Source: Bordetella parapertussis
GTDB taxonomy: Bacteria > Pseudomonadota > Gammaproteobacteria > Burkholderiales > Thiobacillaceae
Assembly (NCBI GenBank): GCA_945890495.1
Contig: CAMDCO010000008.1
Location: forward strand, 1 to 64,000
Length of the DNA: 64,000 nucleotides
Direction of reading: 5' to 3'
Below are positions 1 through 10,310 of this stretch, in pieces. The number at the start of each line of letters is the position of its first letter. The stretch's first letter is position 1. The notes below the pieces were generated by a model, which saw nothing but the letters and a program-made list of their open reading frames with translations, was not told where the DNA came from and did no database searches. The translations under genes and the position numbers were made by a program.

Positions 1-107
1 GTTATATGTCGTTTCGTGTAGAATGCCTTCCATCGCAGTTCGGTACCGCTTCGGTCTGACAGCGAAATGCCTTCTAACCCTTTATCTTACTTTTTGGAGT
101 TACACAC

Positions 108-749
108 ATGAAACTGTCTGCCCTCGCTTCTGCTCTGGTTCTGTCTTCCATCGCTTCCGTGTCGTTCGCCGCTGATGTGGCCAAGCTGGTTGGCGCCGTC
201 TCCACCCCCAAGGCTGCCGCTGCCACCATGCAGTCCCTGATGGATCCGGCCACCTCGATCGCTCTGATCGAAGCCAGCATCAACCCGGCTACCTACACGA
301 AGTTGGGTCAGTCCGCTATGGACCCCAAGACCGCCGCCGCTTTCATGGTCTTCGCTGACCCGGCTCAGTACACCCAGTGGATGGCCGCTTCCATGGACCC
401 GAACTTCGCCATGAGCATGGTTACCCCGATGATGAACCCGAACACCTATGTGAAGTGGATGTCCGCTCCCATGGATCCCCGCGTTCTGAACCTGGGCAAC
501 CAGATGATCAACCCGGCTCTGTACACCCAGTGGATGACGGCTCCGATGTCCCCCGCGAATGTGAACCTGATGATGGCTCCGATGAACCCGAACCTGTACA
601 CCGGCTTCGGTGGCGTCATGGTTGACCCCAAGACCTACGGTTCCATGGGCCAGTTCATCAACCCGAACACCTACAGCGCTTTCATCAACCCGATCACCGC
701 GCTGGTTCCGGCTGTTGCCCCCATCGCCGCTCCGGCTGCCAAGAAGTAA
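108..749 (+). CDS. Secreted Met/Pro periodic-repeat protein of unknown function
   Basis: 213 aa, not assigned to a family. It starts at an ATG behind a GGAG ribosome binding site (96-99) and has a Sec signal peptide with likely cleavage after SFA at residue 21, so it is exported. The mature part is a regular repeat: prolines preceded by D, N or S occur at residues 47, 60, 73, 85, 98, 111, 124, 136, 149, 161, 174 and 186, a 12-13 residue period. Alternate units carry [ND]PxxY, with tyrosines at 63, 88, 114, 139 and 164 giving a 25-residue super-repeat. About 20 methionines (~10%) and no cysteine are present; QWM/KWM recurs. The tail is Ala/Pro-rich and ends in KK. It is monocistronic, followed by a strong terminator. 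Possible roles (structural or envelope protein, metal-binding Met-rich protein) are guesses. Confidence 0.85.
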   Translation: MKLSALASALVLSSIASVSFAADVAKLVGAVSTPKAAAATMQSLMDPATSIALIEASINPATYTKLGQSAMDPKTAAAFMVFADPAQYTQWMAASMDPNFAMSMVTPMMNPNTYVKWMSAPMDPRVLNLGNQMINPALYTQWMTAPMSPANVNLMMAPMNPNLYTGFGGVMVDPKTYGSMGQFINPNTYSAFINPITALVPAVAPIAAPAAKK

Positions 750-771
750 TCGCTCACGCGATCCGCTGTAA

Positions 772-805
772 CGCAAAAAAGGACGCCTCGGCGTCCTTTT
801 TTGCG
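772..805 (+). terminator. Intrinsic terminator of the repeat-protein gene
   Basis: A perfect inverted repeat (CGCAAAAAAGGACGCC and its complement) with a run of six T lies 22 bp after the stop codon. It isolates the preceding gene from prfB and suggests an independently, possibly strongly, expressed mRNA. Confidence 0.9.
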
Positions 806-913
806 TATACCGCCCGACACATCCCCTTATTTAAACACCTCAGACCCTCAGGTGCATCGCCCGAGAGCGGCTATAATCCACGGCTTGAAAATTTGCCGAT
901 CGCCTCAACCCCC

Positions 914-2029: not shown

Positions 2030-3535
2030 ATGAGCGAAGAAAACCTGCCATCCCCCGCCGACGACAACCAGATCGTGGCCGAGCGCCGTGCCAAACTGAC
2101 CGAACTGCGCAGCCAGGGCATCGCCTTCCCGAACGACTTTGAGCGCAAGGATTACGCCGGCGACCTGCACGCCCGCTACGCTGAGACCGATGCCGAGGCC
2201 TTGGCCGCACAGCCCATCCATGTGCAACTGGCTGGCCGCATGATGCTCAAACGCGTCATGGGCAAGGCCAGCTTTGCCACGGTGCAGGACATGAGCGGCC
2301 GTATTCAGCTCTACATCGCCCGCGATAACATCGGCGAGGCAATCTACACGGCCTTCAAGCACTGGGATCTGGGCGACATCCTCGGCGTCGAAGGGACGCT
2401 AATGCGCACCAAGACCGGCGAGTTGTCGATCCAGGCCAGCCAGATCCGTCTGCTGACCAAGGCCCTGCGCCCATTGCCAGAAAAGTTCCACGGCCTCGCC
2501 GATCAGGAACAGAAATACCGCCAGCGCTACCTCGACCTGATCACCAACGAAAACAGCCGCGAGACCTTTATCCGCCGCTCGAAGACCATCCAGTCCATCC
2601 GCGAATTCATGACCGGACACGGCTTTCTGGAGGTCGAGACGCCGATGATGCACCCCATTCCCGGCGGCGCGGCGGCCAAGCCCTTCACCACCCACCACAA
2701 CGCGCTGGACATGCAGATGTTCCTGCGCATCGCGCCGGAGTTGTATCTCAAGCGTCTGGTGGTGGGTGGGCTGGAAAAGGTGTTCGAGATCAACCGCAAC
2801 TTCCGTAACGAAGGTCTGTCCACGCGCCACAACCCCGAGTTCACCATGATGGAGTTCTACGAGGCCTACCGCGATTACCGCTACCTCATGGGCTTTGTCG
2901 AAGACCTCCTGCGCCGCGTTGCGATCGAGGTCACCGGTCACGCGGCGGTTCCCTACCAAGGACACCACATCAACCTGGCTCAACCCTTTGCCCGCCTGAC
3001 CCCGGTCGAGGCCACGCGCCTGTACAACCCAGACCTGAAGGACGCGCCGCTCGACGACAAGGCCTTCGTGCTGGCCGAGCTACAACGGCGCAAGATCGCC
3101 TACCGCAAGAATGACGGCCTCGGTGGTCTGCAACTGACCCTGTTCGAAGAGACCACCGAACACCTGCTGATCCAGCCCACCTACATCATCGAGCACCCGG
3201 TCGAGGCCTCACCGCTGGCGCGCGCCAACGACCAGCGCCCCGAGGTCACCGAACGCTTCGAGCTCTACATCGCCGGCCGCGAGGTCGCCAATGGTTTCTC
3301 CGAGCTCAATGATGCCGAGGATCAAGCCGCCCGTTTCCAAGCCCAGGTCGCGGCCAAGGAGGCCGGCGACGAAGAGGCCATGTATTACGACGCCGACTAT
3401 ATCCGCGCCCTCGAGCACGGTCTGCCGCCTACCGGCGGCTGCGGTATCGGTATCGACCGCTTCGTGATGATGCTCGCCGATGCCGCCAGCATCCGCGATG
3501 TCATCCTGTTCCCGCAATTGCGCCGAGAAGACTGA
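2030..3535 (+). CDS. lysS: Lysyl-tRNA synthetase (class II)
   Basis: Charges tRNA-Lys with lysine in the cytoplasm. 501 aa, close to the typical length. An N-terminal OB-fold anticodon-binding domain (about residues 55-150) precedes the class II catalytic core, with motif 2 ([14 protein letters not shown]) and motif 3 ([13 protein letters not shown]) near the C-terminus. The ATG at 2030 is chosen over an upstream in-frame TTG at 2015 because AAGAGAA sits just before it. It follows prfB by 11 bp, a common pairing. Its last ~58 bp recur at 10340-10397. Confidence 0.97.
3474..3531 (+). repeat. lysS 3'-end direct repeat, copy 1 (inside lysS)
   Basis: These 58 bp, coding the last residues of LysS, match 10340-10397 in direct orientation at 54 of 58 positions by eye. 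Three of the four differences are synonymous in the lysS frame, so the distal copy looks like a real lysS tail from a related source and not a chance match. Confidence 0.9.
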
Positions 3536-3578
3536 GCCCGGCACAACCCGCCCGCAAAGGGCGGTGCATCGGCTGCAC

Positions 3579-4064
3579 ATGGGCACCATGCAACGCAACT
3601 TCTACGGCTTCGATGCGAGTTACCATGTCGCCCGCGCCCGCTTCGTCCACAAGACACCGCAGGCCTGCATACAACCGCAGGCCAAGGCGATGGCCATCGC
3701 GGCCCTCAAGGCCAACGGGCGGTCTGTCGGCATGGTCGGCGACGACGTCAACGATGCCCCTGCACTCGCCAGCGCCGATGTCGGTTTTGGCATGCACGCC
3801 GGAGCCGATATCGCCCGCGAGGCCGCCGACATCACCCTGATGCGCAACGACCTCCACGCCCTTGCCGATGCCATTGAACTGGCCCGCGCCATGACAACGA
3901 AGATCCGCCAGAACCTGTTTTTCGCCTTTGTTTACAATGTTCTCGCCCTGCCGCTCGCCGCCATCGGGATGCTGAACCCCGTCATTTCTGGCGCAGCCAT
4001 GGCCTGATCGTCGGTCAGCGTGGTCAGAAACTCCTTGTTGTTGAAGCGGTTCAAGGGCCGATAA
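3579..4064 (+). pseudogene. Remnant of a heavy-metal (copper-type) P1B ATPase, C-terminal part
   Basis: The reading frame contains the GDDVNDAPAL hinge motif of P-type ATPases, then the ADITLM region and a last membrane segment (FFAFVYNVLALPLAAIG) ending PVISGAAMA. A TGA at 4005-4007 interrupts the frame where family members continue, and the same frame then reads SSVSVVRNSLLLKRF up to a TAA at 4062-4064, the normal tail of CopA-like pumps. The N-terminal metal-binding domains, most membrane helices, the DKTG phosphorylation site and CPx motif are all missing. It is therefore truncated at the 5' side and carries a nonsense mutation. It sits directly between lysS and the GntR regulator, as debris at the edge of the inserted block. 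Confidence 0.8.
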
Positions 4065-4084: not shown

Positions 4085-4123
4085 AACAAAAAATTACAGC
4101 CAAATAATTTCGCATAAGTGCTA

Positions 4124-4159
4124 ACATTCCATCAGATTGTTGACAATATGACGGAATGT
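4124..4159. promoter_or_regulatory. Putative GntR operator, 36-bp palindrome over the translation start region
   Basis: An interrupted palindrome with half-site ACATTCCnTCAnATTGT is centred on 4141.5; only three symmetric base pairs fail to match. Its core ATTGTTGACAAT resembles the site at 4075-4084. It ends four bases before the chosen start codon of the regulator, so binding would block its expression (autoregulation) and that of the prp genes behind it. Confidence 0.65.
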
Positions 4160-4162
4160 CCG

Positions 4163-4840
4163 ATGAGCACCCCAACCACTCTCGCTGATACAGCCGCCGA
4201 TCGCCTGGCACAGGCGATCATCACGGGCGAGTTGGCGCAAGGTCAAAAGCTCAACGAGGCCGAGTTGGCCGAACACTACGGCATGGGTCGTGGCCCCTTG
4301 CGCGAAGCCTTGCGGCGGCTGGAAGGCCAACGGCTGGTCAGCCGCATCCCCAACGCCGGCGCCCGTGTCATCGTCCTCGACCGCAAGACGCTCGCCGAAC
4401 TTTACGCCGTGCGCGAGGCGCTGGAGGGGATGGCCTGCCGTCTAGCCGCCAGCGAAATGAGTGACGCCGAAATCCAGCAATTGCAGGATCTGCTGACGCA
4501 GCACGAACAGCAAATCGAGGAACAGGGCGGCCAGGTCTATGCGCAAAGCGAAGGCGATCTGGACTTTCACTACCTGATCGTGCGCGGCAGCCGCAATGCC
4601 CTGCTGATGGACCTGCTCGGTGGCGAGCAATACCAGTTGTTGCGCATGTGCCGCTACCGCTCCAGCCGTAATGCGCAGCGGCCGCGCCCAGCGCTGGCGC
4701 AACACCGTCACATCGTCGAAGCACTGGCCGCGCGTGATGGCGAACTGGCCGAGTTGCTGATGCGCCGCCATATCCACGGTGCCTGGCAAAGTATCAGCGC
4801 CCTCATGGATGCCGAATCAAAAACCAAGGAATGCTCATGA
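4163..4840 (+). CDS. GntR-family (FadR/FCD subgroup) regulator of the prp operon
   Basis: 225 aa. An N-terminal winged helix-turn-helix (about residues 10-75, containing [25 protein letters not shown]) is followed by an all-helical FCD ligand-binding domain with the expected acidic/His positions ([21 protein letters not shown]). The start at ATG 4163 is preferred to ATG 4148 and GTG 4118 because those lie within a 36-bp palindromic operator. Its stop overlaps prpB (ATGA). Position as first gene of prpBCDE suggests it senses a propionate-pathway intermediate; the ligand is not visible from sequence. Confidence 0.9.
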
Positions 4841-5727
4841 ACCGTACGCAAACCCCCGGCCAGAAGCTGCGCCAGGCCATCGCCGACAACCATCCGTTGC
4901 AGGTGGTCGGCGCGGTGACAGCCTATTGCGCCCTTCTCGCGCAAAAGACCGGCCACCAGGCCCTTTACCTCTCCGGCGGCGGCGTGGCGGCCTCGTCACT
5001 AGGCATCCCTGATCTGGGCATCACCACCCTGCATGATGTCTGCGAGGACACGCGCCGCATCACGGCCGCCAGTAACCTACCGCTTCTGGTAGACATCGAC
5101 ACCGGCTGGGGCGGGGCGTTTAACATCGCCCGCGCCACCCGCGAGATCGCCCAAGCTGGAGCAGCAGGTTTCCATATCGAAGACCAAGTGATGCAAAAAC
5201 GCTGCGGCCACCGCCCCAACAAGGCCATCATCACGCAAAGCGAGATGGTGGACCGCATCAAGGCAGCAGTGGACGCCCGAGTGGATCCGAGTTTCGTGAT
5301 CATGGCCCGCACCGATGCGCTGGCCGTGGAGGGCATGCCCAGCGCCATCGAACGCGCCCAAGCCTGCGTCGAGGCCGGTGCCGACATGATCTTCCCCGAG
5401 GCGATGAACACCCTGGCGCAATACGCCGAGTTCACCCGCGCCGTAAATGTGCCGGTGCTGGCCAACATCACCGAGTTCGGCGCCACGCCGCTCTATACGA
5501 CCGAAGAACTGGCTGGTGTCGGCGTGAAACTGGTGCTCTATCCGCTCTCCGCCTTCCGCGTCATGAGCCAAGCCGCGCTCAAGGTCTATCAGCACATCCT
5601 CGCCGACGGCACCCAGCAAGCCGTCGTACCGGATATGCAAACGCGCATGGCCTTGTACGACTTTCTGGGCTACCACGCCTTTGAACAACAACTCGATCGC
5701 CTGTTCGCTGAAGGAGGCCCGCAATGA
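4837..5727 (+). CDS. prpB: 2-methylisocitrate lyase
   Basis: Cleaves 2-methylisocitrate to pyruvate and succinate, the last step of the methylcitrate cycle. 296 aa, TIM-barrel isocitrate lyase/PEP mutase family. The catalytic loop KRCGH falls with its cysteine at residue 123; the metal-binding DIDTGWGG and EDQ segments are present. The ATG at 4837 overlaps the regulator stop and has AAGGA six bases upstream; ATG 4831 is too close to that site. Its stop overlaps prpC by ATGA, so the genes are translationally coupled. Confidence 0.97.
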
Positions 5728-6869
5728 GCGAGACCCTCGCGTCAAAACCGAAAAAATCCGTCGCCCTGTCCGGCACGGTCGCTGGCAATACCTCCGTCTG
5801 CACCGTCGGTCACACCGGCAACGACCTGCATTACCGGGGCTACGACATCCTCGACTTTGCCGAACAGGCCGAGTTCGAGGAGATCGCCCACCTCTTGATC
5901 CACGGCAGACTGCCCAACCGCGCCGAGCTGGCCGCCTACAAGACTAAACTCACCGGACTGCGAGGATTACCGCCGCCGCTCAGACAAGTGCTGGAGGCCA
6001 TCCCCGCCAGCGCCCATCCGATGGATGTGCTACGGACCGGGTGCTCCATGCTGGGCTCCTGTGAGCCAGAAGGCCCGATCAGCGACATCGCTGGTACGCA
6101 GGATGCGATCGACCGTTTGCTGGCAAGCCTAGGTTCGATGCTGATGTACTGGCATCACTACAGCACCTCCGGCCGGCGCATCGAAGTGGAAACGGATGAC
6201 GACTCAACCGCGGGCCATCTCCTGCATCTCCTTCATGGCAAGGCACCGCGCCCATCCTGGATACGCGCCATGCACACCTCGCTGATCCTCTACGCCGAGC
6301 ATGAGTTCAACGCCTCGACCTTCACCGCCCGCGTCGTGGCTGGCACAAACTCCGATCTCCATTCGTGCATCGCCGCCGCGATCGGCGCGTTGCGTGGCCC
6401 CAAACACGGGGGCGCCAACGAGGAGGCCTTCCGCATCCAAGACCGTTACACCGACGCCGATGCCGCCGAGGCCGACATCCGCGAGCGCGTGGCCAGGAAA
6501 GAGATCATCACCGGCTTCGGCCACCCGGTGTACACCCTCGCCGACCCGCGCAATGAGGTCATCAAGCGCGTCGCGCAGGGACTTTCCGACGAAAACGGCG
6601 ACCGGCGCCTGTTCGCCATCGCCGCGCGTCTAGAGGTCGTGATGTGGGATCTGAAAAAGATGTTCCCCAATCTCGACTGGTTCTCAGCCGTGTCTTATCA
6701 CCAGATGGGCGTGCCGACCGCCATATTCACCCCCCTGTTCGTCATCGCCCGCGTCACCGGCTGGGGCGCGCATGTCATCGAGCAGCGCCAAGACGGCAAG
6801 ATCATCCGCCCCAGTGCGCACTACACCGGCCCGGAAAACCGGCCCTGGACACCCATCGAACATCGCTAA
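5724..6869 (+). CDS. prpC: 2-methylcitrate synthase
   Basis: Condenses propionyl-CoA with oxaloacetate to 2-methylcitrate. 381 aa, citrate synthase superfamily, short form without the N-terminal extension of TCA-cycle citrate synthase. Recognisable elements are the [19 protein letters not shown] start, the [13 protein letters not shown] segment with an active-site histidine, and [12 protein letters not shown] with the second histidine. It overlaps prpB by 4 bp and precedes prpD by 28 bp. Assignment to methylcitrate rather than citrate synthase rests on length and operon context. Confidence 0.96.
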
Positions 6870-6897
6870 TCAGCAACGCCCACCCCGAAAGCCCCCC

Positions 6898-8385
6898 ATG
6901 AGCGCCAATGTAGACCTGAACAACCGCCCAGCCCCCGATCAGGTGCTGGTTGATATCGCCCGCTATGTGTGTAACACCGATCTCTCCTCGCAGGAGGCAT
7001 ACGACACCGCGCGCAGTTGCCTGATCGACACCCTCGGCTGCGGCCTCCTCGCGCTGCGTTTTCCCGAATGCACTAAGCATCTCGGCCCGATCGTGCCAGG
7101 CACCACGGTGCGGCACGGCGCCCGCGTACCGGGCACCTCACACGAACTCGATCCGGTCAAGGCCGCCTGGGACATCGGCGCCATGGTGCGCTGGTTGGAC
7201 TACAACGACACTTGGCTGGCTGCCGAATGGGGTCACCCCTCGGACAACCTGGGCGGCATCCTAGCCGTAGCCGATTATCGGTCGCGGTGTCGAGTCGCCG
7301 AGGGAGAAGCACCGCTAACGATGCGAGATGTACTCACCGCGATGATCCAAGCACACGAGGTGCAAGGCGTACTAGCGCTGGAAAACAGCTTCAACCGCGT
7401 TGGTCTCGATCATGTAATCCTGGTCAAGGTTGCCTCGACCGCTGTCGTCACCCGTCTGCTTGGCGGCTCGGAGGCACAGGTGATCGACGCCCTGTCGCAG
7501 GCCTTTGTTGACGGTCAGGCCCTGCGCACCTACCGCCACGCGCCCAACGCCGGTTCGCGCAAATCCTGGGCGGCGGGCGATGCCACCTCGCGCGCCGTGC
7601 GCCTGGCAATGATGACGATGGCCGGCGAGATGGGCATCCCCGGCGTGCTGACCGCACCGCAATGGGGCTTTTACGATGTGCTATTTGCCAAGACCAACAA
7701 GGATCAGCAGATCAAACCTGCCGAACAACGCCACTTCAAGATCGCGCAGCCTTACGGCACTTATGTGATGGAGCAGATCCTGTTCAAGATTTCCTTCCCG
7801 GCCGAGTTCCACTCGCAAACCGCCTGCGAGGCAGCCGTACGCCTGCATCCGCAGGTCAAGGATCGTCTGGACGAGATCGAAAAGATCGTTGTTACGACGC
7901 ATGAGTCAGCCATCCGCATCATCTCCAAGGTCGGGCCGCTGGCCAATGCCGCCGACCGCGACCATTGCCTGCAATACATCATCGCGGTGCCGCTCATCAC
8001 CGGCCATCTGGTCGCCGAAAACTACGAGGATGCCTTCCACGCCGCCCATCCGTTGATCGACAGGCTGCGCGACAAAATGGAGATCGTCGAGGACCCGCGT
8101 TACAGCCGCGAATATCTGGAACCGGACAAGCGCTCAATCGCCAATGCCATCCAGGTGTTTTTCAAGGACGGCAGCCGCACCGAGAAAATCGCGGTCGAAT
8201 ACCCGATTGGCCATCGCCGCCGCCGCGCCGAGGGCATCCCGGTGCTGGAGCAAAAGTTCCTCGACAACCTGCGCACCCGTTTCCCCGAGGGCCGTTGTCA
8301 GGCAATCATGGCGCTGTGCCTGGATCAGGCCCGGCTCGAGGCCACGCCGGTGCACCACTTCATGGACCTGTTCGGCATTAACTAG
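6898..8385 (+). CDS. prpD: 2-methylcitrate dehydratase
   Basis: Dehydrates 2-methylcitrate to 2-methyl-cis-aconitate. 495 aa, MmgE/PrpD family, near the size of the E. coli enzyme. The N-terminal part carries the family patterns [37 protein letters not shown] and GNAT-unrelated helical core; the C-terminal lid ends [10 protein letters not shown]. No acnD/prpF pair accompanies it, so this is the prpD-type version of the pathway and hydration of the product would depend on an aconitase encoded elsewhere. Start ATG 6898 follows prpC by 28 bp without a strong ribosome site. Confidence 0.96.
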
Positions 8386-8420
8386 TCCCACCTCCTTAGC
8401 CCCCCTCCCCGGAGACGATC

Positions 8421-10310
8421 ATGCGCTACCAAACCGAGTTTGACCGTTCGATGCACGACCCCGAGGGCTTCTGGCGCGAGCAGGCCCGTGCCCTGCCGTG
8501 GTACCAGTTTCCAGAGCAAATCCTGATCCGTGACCGGGACGGCATCGGCTACTGGTTCGCCGACGGCGAGATGAACACCGCCTACATGGCGCTCGACCAT
8601 CATGTCGAAAACGGGCGCGGCGCGCAGACGGCGCTGATCTACGACTCGCCTGTCACCGGCATGAAGGCGCGTTACACCTACGCCGAACTCACCGATGCCG
8701 TGGCACGCACCGCCGGCATGCTGGCCCAACTCGGCGTCATCAAGGGCGACCGCGTCATCATCTACATGCCCATGATCCCGGAGGCCGTCATTGCCATGCT
8801 CGCCGTGGCACGCCTGGGCGCGATCCATTCGGTGGTGTTCGGCGGCTTTGCCGCACCCGAACTGGCGTTGCGCATCGACGACGCAACCCCAAAGGTTATC
8901 CTGTCGGCCTCGTGCGGCATCGAAGTCACCCGCCGCATCGAATACAAACCCCTCCTCGACCGCGCCCTGGAACTGGCCAAACACGCACCACAATGCTGCG
9001 TCATCTTCCAGCGCCCGGCCCTGCCTGCCACGCTTGTCGCCGGCCGCGACCATGACTGGGCCTCTCTGCTGGCCCGGGCCCAACCGGTGGGCTGCACGCC
9101 GGTCAAAGGCGCCGACCCGCTCTATATCCTCTACACCTCCGGCACCACCGGCAAACCCAAGGGCGTAGTGCGCGAAAACGGCGGTCACGCCGTGGCGCTC
9201 AAATACAGCATGAAGGCCATCTACGATACCGAGCCCGGCGAGGTATTTTTCGCCTGTTCCGATGTCGGCTGGGTGGTCGGCCACTCCTACATCGTCTATG
9301 GCCCGCTATTGCAGGGCTGCACTACCATCGTCTATGAAGGCAAGCCGGTGATGACACCGGACGCCGGGGCGCTGTGGCGGGTCTGCACCGAATACGGCGT
9401 GAAGGCCCTCTTCACCGCGCCCACCGCCTTCCGTGCCATCAAGAAAGAAGACCCCGACGGCACACTGATGCATCGCCACGACCTCTCCCGCCTGCAAACC
9501 ATCTTCTCGGCCGGCGAACGGCTCGACCCGCCCACCCAGGCCTGGCTGGGCGAGATGAGCGGCAAGCCGGTGGTCGATCACTGGTGGCAGACCGAGACCG
9601 GCTGGGGCATCACCGCCAACCTGCGCGGCGTGGAACCGATGCCGATCAAGCCGGGCTCGTCGACCGTGCCAACGCCTGGTTTCGATGTGCAGATCCTCGA
9701 CGAAAATGGTCAACCAGTGCCGCGCGGCGTCCAGGGCTACATCGCCCTTAAATTACCGCTGCCGCCGTCCTGTCTGAACCGCATCTGGGGCGACGACCAG
9801 CGCTTCGCACAGAGCTATCTACGCTTCCTGCCGGGCTACTACACCAGCGGTGACGGCGGCTATATCGACGCCGACGGCTATGTATTTGTCATGGGCCGCG
9901 TCGACGATGTCATCAATGTTGCCGGCCATCGCCTATCCACCGGCGAGATGGAAGAGGTGATCGCCAACCACCCGGCCATCGCCGAATGTGCCGTCATCTC
10001 CCGCGACGACGAACTCAAGGGCCAGGTACCGATGGGCCTGGTGGTGCTCAAGGGCGGCATAACCCTGAGCGAGGACGAGGTGCAAAGGCAACTCGTTGCG
10101 CTGATCCGCGACCAGATCGGCGCCATCACCTGTTACAAGGACACCGTGGTGGTCGTCCGCCTGCCGAAGACCCGTTCCGGCAAGACCCTGCGCAACACCC
10201 TGAGCCGGCTGATCAATGGACGCGAATACACCGTACCCTCCACCATCGACGACACCGCCGTCATCCCTGAAATCGCCGACCGGTTGCGTACCCGGGGCCT
10301 TATCCCATAA
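8421..10310 (+). CDS. prpE: Propionyl-CoA synthetase (propionate-CoA ligase)
   Basis: Activates propionate with ATP and CoA, feeding prpC. 629 aa, acyl-adenylate-forming (ANL) superfamily, close to the E. coli length. The P-loop-like motif YTSGTTGKPKGVV, the adenylation motif WWQTETGW and the C-terminal hinge GRVDDVINVAGHRLSTGE are all present. Lys588 in RSGKTLRN is the catalytic lysine that Pat-type acetyltransferases modify in this family. GGAG stands 8 bases before ATG 8421. Last gene of the prp operon. Confidence 0.96.
   Translation: MRYQTEFDRSMHDPEGFWREQARALPWYQFPEQILIRDRDGIGYWFADGEMNTAYMALDHHVENGRGAQTALIYDSPVTGMKARYTYAELTDAVARTAGMLAQLGVIKGDRVIIYMPMIPEAVIAMLAVARLGAIHSVVFGGFAAPELALRIDDATPKVILSASCGIEVTRRIEYKPLLDRALELAKHAPQCCVIFQRPALPATLVAGRDHDWASLLARAQPVGCTPVKGADPLYILYTSGTTGKPKGVVRENGGHAVALKYSMKAIYDTEPGEVFFACSDVGWVVGHSYIVYGPLLQGCTTIVYEGKPVMTPDAGALWRVCTEYGVKALFTAPTAFRAIKKEDPDGTLMHRHDLSRLQTIFSAGERLDPPTQAWLGEMSGKPVVDHWWQTETGWGITANLRGVEPMPIKPGSSTVPTPGFDVQILDENGQPVPRGVQGYIALKLPLPPSCLNRIWGDDQRFAQSYLRFLPGYYTSGDGGYIDADGYVFVMGRVDDVINVAGHRLSTGEMEEVIANHPAIAECAVISRDDELKGQVPMGLVVLKGGITLSEDEVQRQLVALIRDQIGAITCYKDTVVVVRLPKTRSGKTLRNTLSRLINGREYTVPSTIDDTAVIPEIADRLRTRGLIP

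Follow-up and report, generated by a model that had tools for sequence, protein, structure and literature searches.

P0001, encoded at positions 108–749 of the window (the whole stretch of 64,000 nucleotides analyzed here), is probably a structural protein that helps to store sulfur in the periplasm, to which the Sec pathway would export it. It belongs to a multi-copy family of sulfide-oxidizing Thiobacillaceae. We infer the binding of sulfur from the repeat pattern of the protein, the distribution of its family, and the genes with which the family is linked.

A predicted exported protein with a regular D/N-P repeat

The gene is an open reading frame of 213 codons on the forward strand (108–749, +), of which 141 homologous stretches were found among the loci collected. 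Inspection of the sequence located a Shine–Dalgarno-like GGAG at 96–99 (+), 8 nt 5′ of the ATG, and a plausible Sec-type signal peptide at residues 1–21 (108–170, +), MKLSALASALVLSSIASVSFA followed by AD, with putative cleavage between SFA and A. The hydrophobic N-terminus is conserved in the relatives, and P0001 is predicted to be exported, which agrees with the original prediction that the protein has a signal peptide of its own. The repeat domain spans residues 34–195 (207–692, +) and consists of alternating units A and B with one helix each, as delineated by the period, a 72-sequence consensus, and AF2 modeling. It is followed by an Ala/Pro/Lys-rich C-terminal tail (residues 196–213; 693–746, +), which is modeled with low confidence (pLDDT 59–61) and differs in length among paralogues.

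All of the [DNS]-P prolines listed earlier (residues 47, 60, 73, 85, 98, 111, 124, 136, 149, 161, 174, and 186) were reproduced, and one further pair was found at residue 195, giving 13 pairs in total. The [ND]PxxY tyrosines at residues 63, 88, 114, 139, and 164 were likewise recovered, together with two more at 177 and 189 that the earlier list had missed. The best-fitting period of the [DNS]-P pairs is 12.55 residues. When equally many sites were placed at random, none of 5000 trials attained the power of the actual pattern at any period between 6 and 30. The mature chain of 192 residues contains 10.4% Met and no Cys, matching the composition reported before (Met near 10%, Cys absent), as well as no His, a single Glu, and a single Arg; the GRAVY of P0001 is +0.17. 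In the alignment of 72 relatives, the prolines from 47 to 174 are each 94–100% conserved. The consensus of unit A, [ND]P-x-x-Y-x-x-W-M-x-A, alternates with that of unit B, [DN]P-x-x-[YML]-x-x-M-M, and the overall composition of the 72 sequences is 18% Ala, 12% Met, 11% Pro, 0.2% His, and 0.1% Cys.

Predicted fold and family assignment

The AF2 model calculated from the 72-sequence alignment has a mean pLDDT of 83, with values of 88–94 for residues 31–160. One helix of 10–12 residues is placed in each D/N-P unit with the D/N as the helix N-cap, and the helices comprise residues 34–44, 47–58, 60–70, 73–83, 85–95, 98–109, 111–122, 124–133, 136–147, 149–159, and 161–172. An earlier run with a 23-sequence alignment also gave a helix in every unit but reached a pLDDT of only 72. 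We used the 72-sequence model, which keeps the helices of this moderate model, in its place. The prediction supports an α-solenoid of approximately 25-residue helix pairs and bears out the 25-residue super-repeat with helix-cap-like D/N-P that had been suggested for the protein. A solenoid or a filament-like fold had been proposed; the solenoid is upheld by AF2, while the filament gains nothing from a monomer prediction, which is silent on assembly. The objection that the chain might be disordered without repeat geometry fails because AF2 places one confident helix per D/N-P unit in an ordered core.

The family had not been recognized in the original prediction, and our searches for a match to a characterized family in Pfam, NCBIfam, and the PDB likewise gave no confident hit. 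Among the 72 members, no Pfam family was matched at E ≤ 0.01 and the NCBIfam matches were weak and inconsistent, none of them convincing. P0001 alone returned only noise against Pfam, NCBIfam, and the PDB, with no sequence relative found in the PDB. Foldseek against the PDB gave a best E of 4.9 with TM of 0.14–0.17, a search that solenoids of other curvature can escape, and against viral models it found no related fold. Judged by sequence, this is a new repeat family that was previously unnamed.

Distribution of the repeat family

The repeat family is carried by 50 of 100 genomes of the window's bacterial family, with 3–10 paralogues each, and is absent from the other 50. Named relatives come from Thiobacillus, Thiobacillaceae, and Hydrogenophilales MAGs and from some MAGs labeled Gallionellaceae or Tepidiphilus, and include an isolate, Parasulfuritortus cantonensis LSR1 (L069). 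The window's own genome (G000; 1.69 Mb, 81% complete) has a second paralogue on contig C12 (43% identity), and its contig C17 ends in a partial copy that is near-identical. Each of the five genomes of the genus has copies located where contigs end (the starts of C8 and C15 and the end of C17 in G000; C3 in G001; C10, C32, and C35 in G002; C73 in G003; C33 in G004), as if near-identical multi-copy genes were breaking the assemblies. Several larger genomes have a second, more divergent member arranged in tandem with the main orthologue, directly downstream of it (L041:8794–9315, L048:8910–9485, L067:8798–9403, and L070:8709–9278).

Outside the window's bacterial family, full matches were limited to 7 of the 368 other genomes in the class, a count that leaves out G460 with its 39-residue stretch containing a stop. 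Six of these seven genomes have dsrA, compared with 111 of the 361 genomes that lack the repeat family (p = 0.005, kinship ignored); the remaining one, G208, has a completeness of 90%, and its congener G329 has dsrA. To judge from these genomes, the family is limited to sulfur oxidizers, mostly Thiobacillaceae with scattered Gammaproteobacteria. It is not required for sulfur oxidation because many dsr-positive Thiobacillaceae are without it. Scans of viral contigs, phages, and plasmids returned no family match, so the gene is not obviously phage- or plasmid-borne.

Genetic tie to sulfide oxidation

The repeat family is genetically tied to sulfide oxidation. Inside Thiobacillaceae, dsrA was dropped as a marker since its presence does not distinguish genomes with the repeat family from those without it, and we therefore used the copy number of flavocytochrome c sulfide dehydrogenase (FCSD, searched as PF21706). 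FCSD averages 4.0 copies per genome with the repeat family and 1.5 without it (p = 5e-12, kinship ignored), and the difference is also seen within genus g7 (3.4 versus 1.3, p = 2e-4). The copy numbers of the repeat family and FCSD correlate with a rho of 0.72, part of which is supplied by linked copies. SoxC exceeded the cut-off in none of the 50 family-positive genomes and in 4 of the 50 family-negative ones, a difference that is not significant alone. Sox without SoxCD leaves sulfane sulfur, and the lack of SoxC in family-positive genomes is what would be expected if this sulfur must be stored. In the window's own genome, at 81% completeness, dsrA is over the cut-off and three FCSD matches but no SoxC match were found.

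The tie extends to gene neighborhoods. Among the matches listed, at least eight repeat/FCSD pairs lie within 3 kb where 1.3 are expected (seven at about 1.1 kb and one at 2.5 kb), and FCSD occurs in the flanks of 9 of 80 loci against about 1.5 expected. One paralogue clade (L072–L078 and L080) sits between DUF302/rhodanese and a diheme cytochrome with FccB, in the operon order rhodanese, DUF302, repeat protein, diheme cytochrome, FccB, multiheme cytochrome. At L098 the order is MauG-like protein, cytochrome c, FccB, repeat protein, SoxY, SoxZ, DUF302, MNP-rich protein, and in G129, a distant genome, the neighbors of a relative are a Sulf_transp protein, two additional MNP-repeat proteins, DUF302, and SoxY. 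Across distant genomes, an exported DUF302-domain protein is repeatedly found next to the repeat family and FCSD/SoxYZ (L077:2770–3549, L098:9624–10340, L144:12672–13739, and L072:7162–7869); DUF302 may contribute to the handling of sulfur in the periplasm.

The window's contig, C8, begins 107 bases before the ATG of the P0001 gene, and its first 149 bases are identical, in reverse, to the first 149 of contig C15. Read toward the window gene, C15 encodes cytochrome c, FccB, two Sulf_transp proteins, and an SCP2-like exported protein; in sister genome G003, a single contig carries these genes in the same order and continues into an orthologue with 90% identity. The FCSD operon of C15 thus likely lies just upstream of the window gene; the junction is likely rather than proven because a second near-identical gene copy exists. 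The two Sulf_transp proteins in this operon are split and of the YeeE/YedE type (L114:1034–2026), in a streamlined genome. LuxR/histidine-kinase, seen upstream of a copy in G002, was rejected as the upstream neighbor: the kinase of the window's own genome is on C11, for which the search reported no family match. In larger genomes, the orthologue group of the window gene is usually found beside 5-formyl-THF cyclo-ligase and a branched-chain amino-acid transporter, and sulfur genes are not its usual neighbors.

The cytochromes in these operons suggest a different role, that of a periplasmic electron-transfer scaffold, in which the Met/Trp/Tyr-rich solenoid would organize c-type cytochromes (FccA-like, multiheme, or MauG-like) taking electrons from FCSD without contacting sulfur. 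FCSD-linked operons are indeed rich in c-type cytochromes, and the SoxY-DUF302 cluster of G129 includes an exported protein with a heme-like CxxCH site (CAACH) followed by very long MNP/MMNPM repeats (L144:11598–12590). However, the window gene and most paralogues have neither a heme site nor Cys, no cytochromes adjoin the copies located near 5-FCL or ABC-transporter genes, and the SoxYZ, DUF302, and sulfur-transport neighbors indicate sulfur, which makes such a scaffold unlikely.

Expression unit and other genes in the window

The gene appears to form a transcription unit of its own. A promoter-like element at 1–24 (+), identified by its match to the consensus, has its −10 hexamer TAGAAT at 19–24, and its −35 is broken between TTGA and GT by the contig start and completed by C15. 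C15 reads TTGAGT-N16-TAGAAT and sister genomes G002 and G003 read TTGCGT-N16-TAGAAT, so that a sigma70-like TTG[AC]GT-N16-TAGAAT is kept upstream of the gene in three species. A pattern scan of the window alone is blind to this promoter, the −35 being split. Downstream, a Rho-independent-type terminator at about 768–810 (+) forms a perfect hairpin, AAAAAAGGACGCC-loop-GGCGTCCTTTTTT, with an A-tract and a T-tract. It was not listed by a simple terminator pattern scan, and the fold of 748–812 has an energy of −34.6 kcal/mol (z = −7.3), in keeping with the strong terminator claimed earlier. The codon bias of the P0001 gene is the strongest among seven window genes checked (Nc 29.9 versus 34–40), with CTG used for 12 of 14 Leu codons. 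With prfB as the nearest downstream gene, the conserved promoter and the codon bias are consistent with the stand-alone, abundant expression that had been predicted from the DNA.

The prfB gene (release factor 2; 914–2018) shows the classical programmed +1 frameshift, with an ATG at 914 and an in-frame TGA at 995 in GGGGGTATCTTTGAC, and its true start differs from that of the listed ORF (GTG at 969). Behind lysS, an ORF at 3480–4007, the C-terminal part of which resembles the final segment of a copper-type P-type ATPase (VGDDVNDAPAL), is apparently a truncated remnant. A methylcitrate-cycle-like cluster at 4118–10310 (GntR regulator, prpB, prpC, prpD, and prpE, by translation) was observed in a lineage with reduced genomes of 1.2–1.7 Mb.

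Paralogues with an OmpA domain

Many family-positive genomes hold a paralogue in which a long Ala/Pro linker connects the repeat domain with an OmpA domain at the C-terminus (L031:785–2200 and L136–L142). We read eight paralogue genes, picked mostly for long reading frames, and in seven of them the C-terminus could be aligned visually with the OmpA domain from L031, which comes from the window's own genus. Pfam confirmed an OmpA-like domain (PF00691) in both L139 and L031, the two E values being 6e-20 and 1e-17.

Such fusions, which suggest that at least one type of paralogue is tied to peptidoglycan, would also suit a structural protein of the envelope in general (S-layer, sheath, or periplasmic spacer), with paralogues that are numerous in a sulfur-oxidizing family by chance. 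Small repeat proteins that are non-enzymatic and have a strong codon bias are typical structural components. Yet the presence of the repeat family is patchy inside one bacterial family and tracks FCSD copies even within genera, and its repeated placement in sulfide-oxidation operons is unexpected for a generic wall protein. We regard this explanation as quite improbable.

A proposed model for periplasmic sulfur storage

On the basis of the predicted periplasmic site, the hosts, the gene partners, and the thiol-free Met/aromatic surface, we propose a coat or scaffold of stored sulfur. Eleven or more short D/N-P-capped helices would pair into 25-residue repeats and stack as an α-solenoid lined with Met, Trp, Tyr, and Ala. 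FCSD, which oxidizes sulfide to sulfur or polysulfide in vitro in the account cited (PMC3368242), and SoxYZ would produce zero-valent sulfur or polysulfide in the periplasm, and the solenoid surface could bind it. The solenoids of many paralogues may then build the coat or scaffold (a sulfur-globule envelope), which OmpA-tailed paralogues would tether to peptidoglycan, and the stored sulfur would later be taken back for reverse-Dsr oxidation. In the literature searched, there is no record of sulfur globules in these uncultured species.

The Met content of 10–12% across the family also underlies the earlier hint that the repeats chelate Cu(I) or Hg(II), which we rejected as highly improbable on composition and gene context: the family has next to no His (0.2%) or Cys (0.1%), the conserved Met alternate with Trp/Tyr at hydrophobic unit positions, and the neighborhoods read contain no copper, mercury, or metal-resistance genes but many sulfur-oxidation genes instead. 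Neither Met/His clusters nor a copper-gene context, the features sought as signs of a Met-rich copper protein, were found for P0001, which lacks His and Cys.

Returning to the sulfur coat, we tentatively extend it to a general scheme, in which an unnamed α-solenoid class could coat the sulfur stored in the periplasm of chemolithotrophic Thiobacillaceae and scattered Gammaproteobacteria. Such an envelope would have no relation to the Sgp proteins found in purple sulfur bacteria, and OmpA-tailed members would attach it to the cell wall. Detailed knowledge of sulfur packaging is limited to a few purple sulfur bacteria, and how sulfur-globule envelopes are built structurally is described as poorly resolved in the passages cited (PMC10386293). 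An FCSD-linked, confidently predicted solenoid family would offer a structural entry point to sulfur storage and a metagenome marker for sulfur-storing chemolithotrophs, and its short, highly regular helical repeat might be of use in protein design.

Comparison with known systems

Like other α-solenoids (TPR, HEAT, Sel1, Pumilio, LRV, and others), the P0001 family is predicted by AF2 to stack short helices in series. Most α-α repeats have 33–45 residues, whereas two helices of the P0001 family fit into approximately 25, and neither a Pfam repeat model nor a PDB fold of the known repeats matches it. With the OmpA-family peptidoglycan-binding proteins (PF00691), one paralogue type shares the C-terminal OmpA-like domain, which P0001 itself does not have.

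The closest functional parallel would be Sgp. In Allochromatium vinosum, sulfur is kept in periplasmic globules coated by the hydrophobic Sgp proteins (SgpA–D), and sgpD is a separate transcription unit, according to the passages cited (PMC10386293 and PMC3368242 for the globules; PMC10386293 for sgpD). As Sgp is described there, both groups have a Sec signal peptide and a periplasmic site (for P0001 by inspection), are hydrophobic, low in charge, and repetitive with regularly spaced prolines, form separate transcription units with their own promoter and terminator, and are represented in each cell by several proteins that are paralogous or partially redundant; both hosts have reverse Dsr and FCSD and no SoxCD. 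They differ in that the prolines are 12–13 residues apart in P0001 and arranged as P-x2-P-x2-P in SgpD, and P0001 is predicted as a regular short-helix solenoid while SgpD has been modeled as two long helices with low-confidence loops. Moreover, SgpD is reported in these passages to be nearly confined to Chromatiaceae, unlike the P0001 family, and they describe no OmpA-tailed paralogues for Sgp. We do not claim membership of P0001 in the Sgp family, from which it is set apart by proline spacing and predicted fold; by analogy, the P0001 family would work like Sgp if it does bind sulfur.
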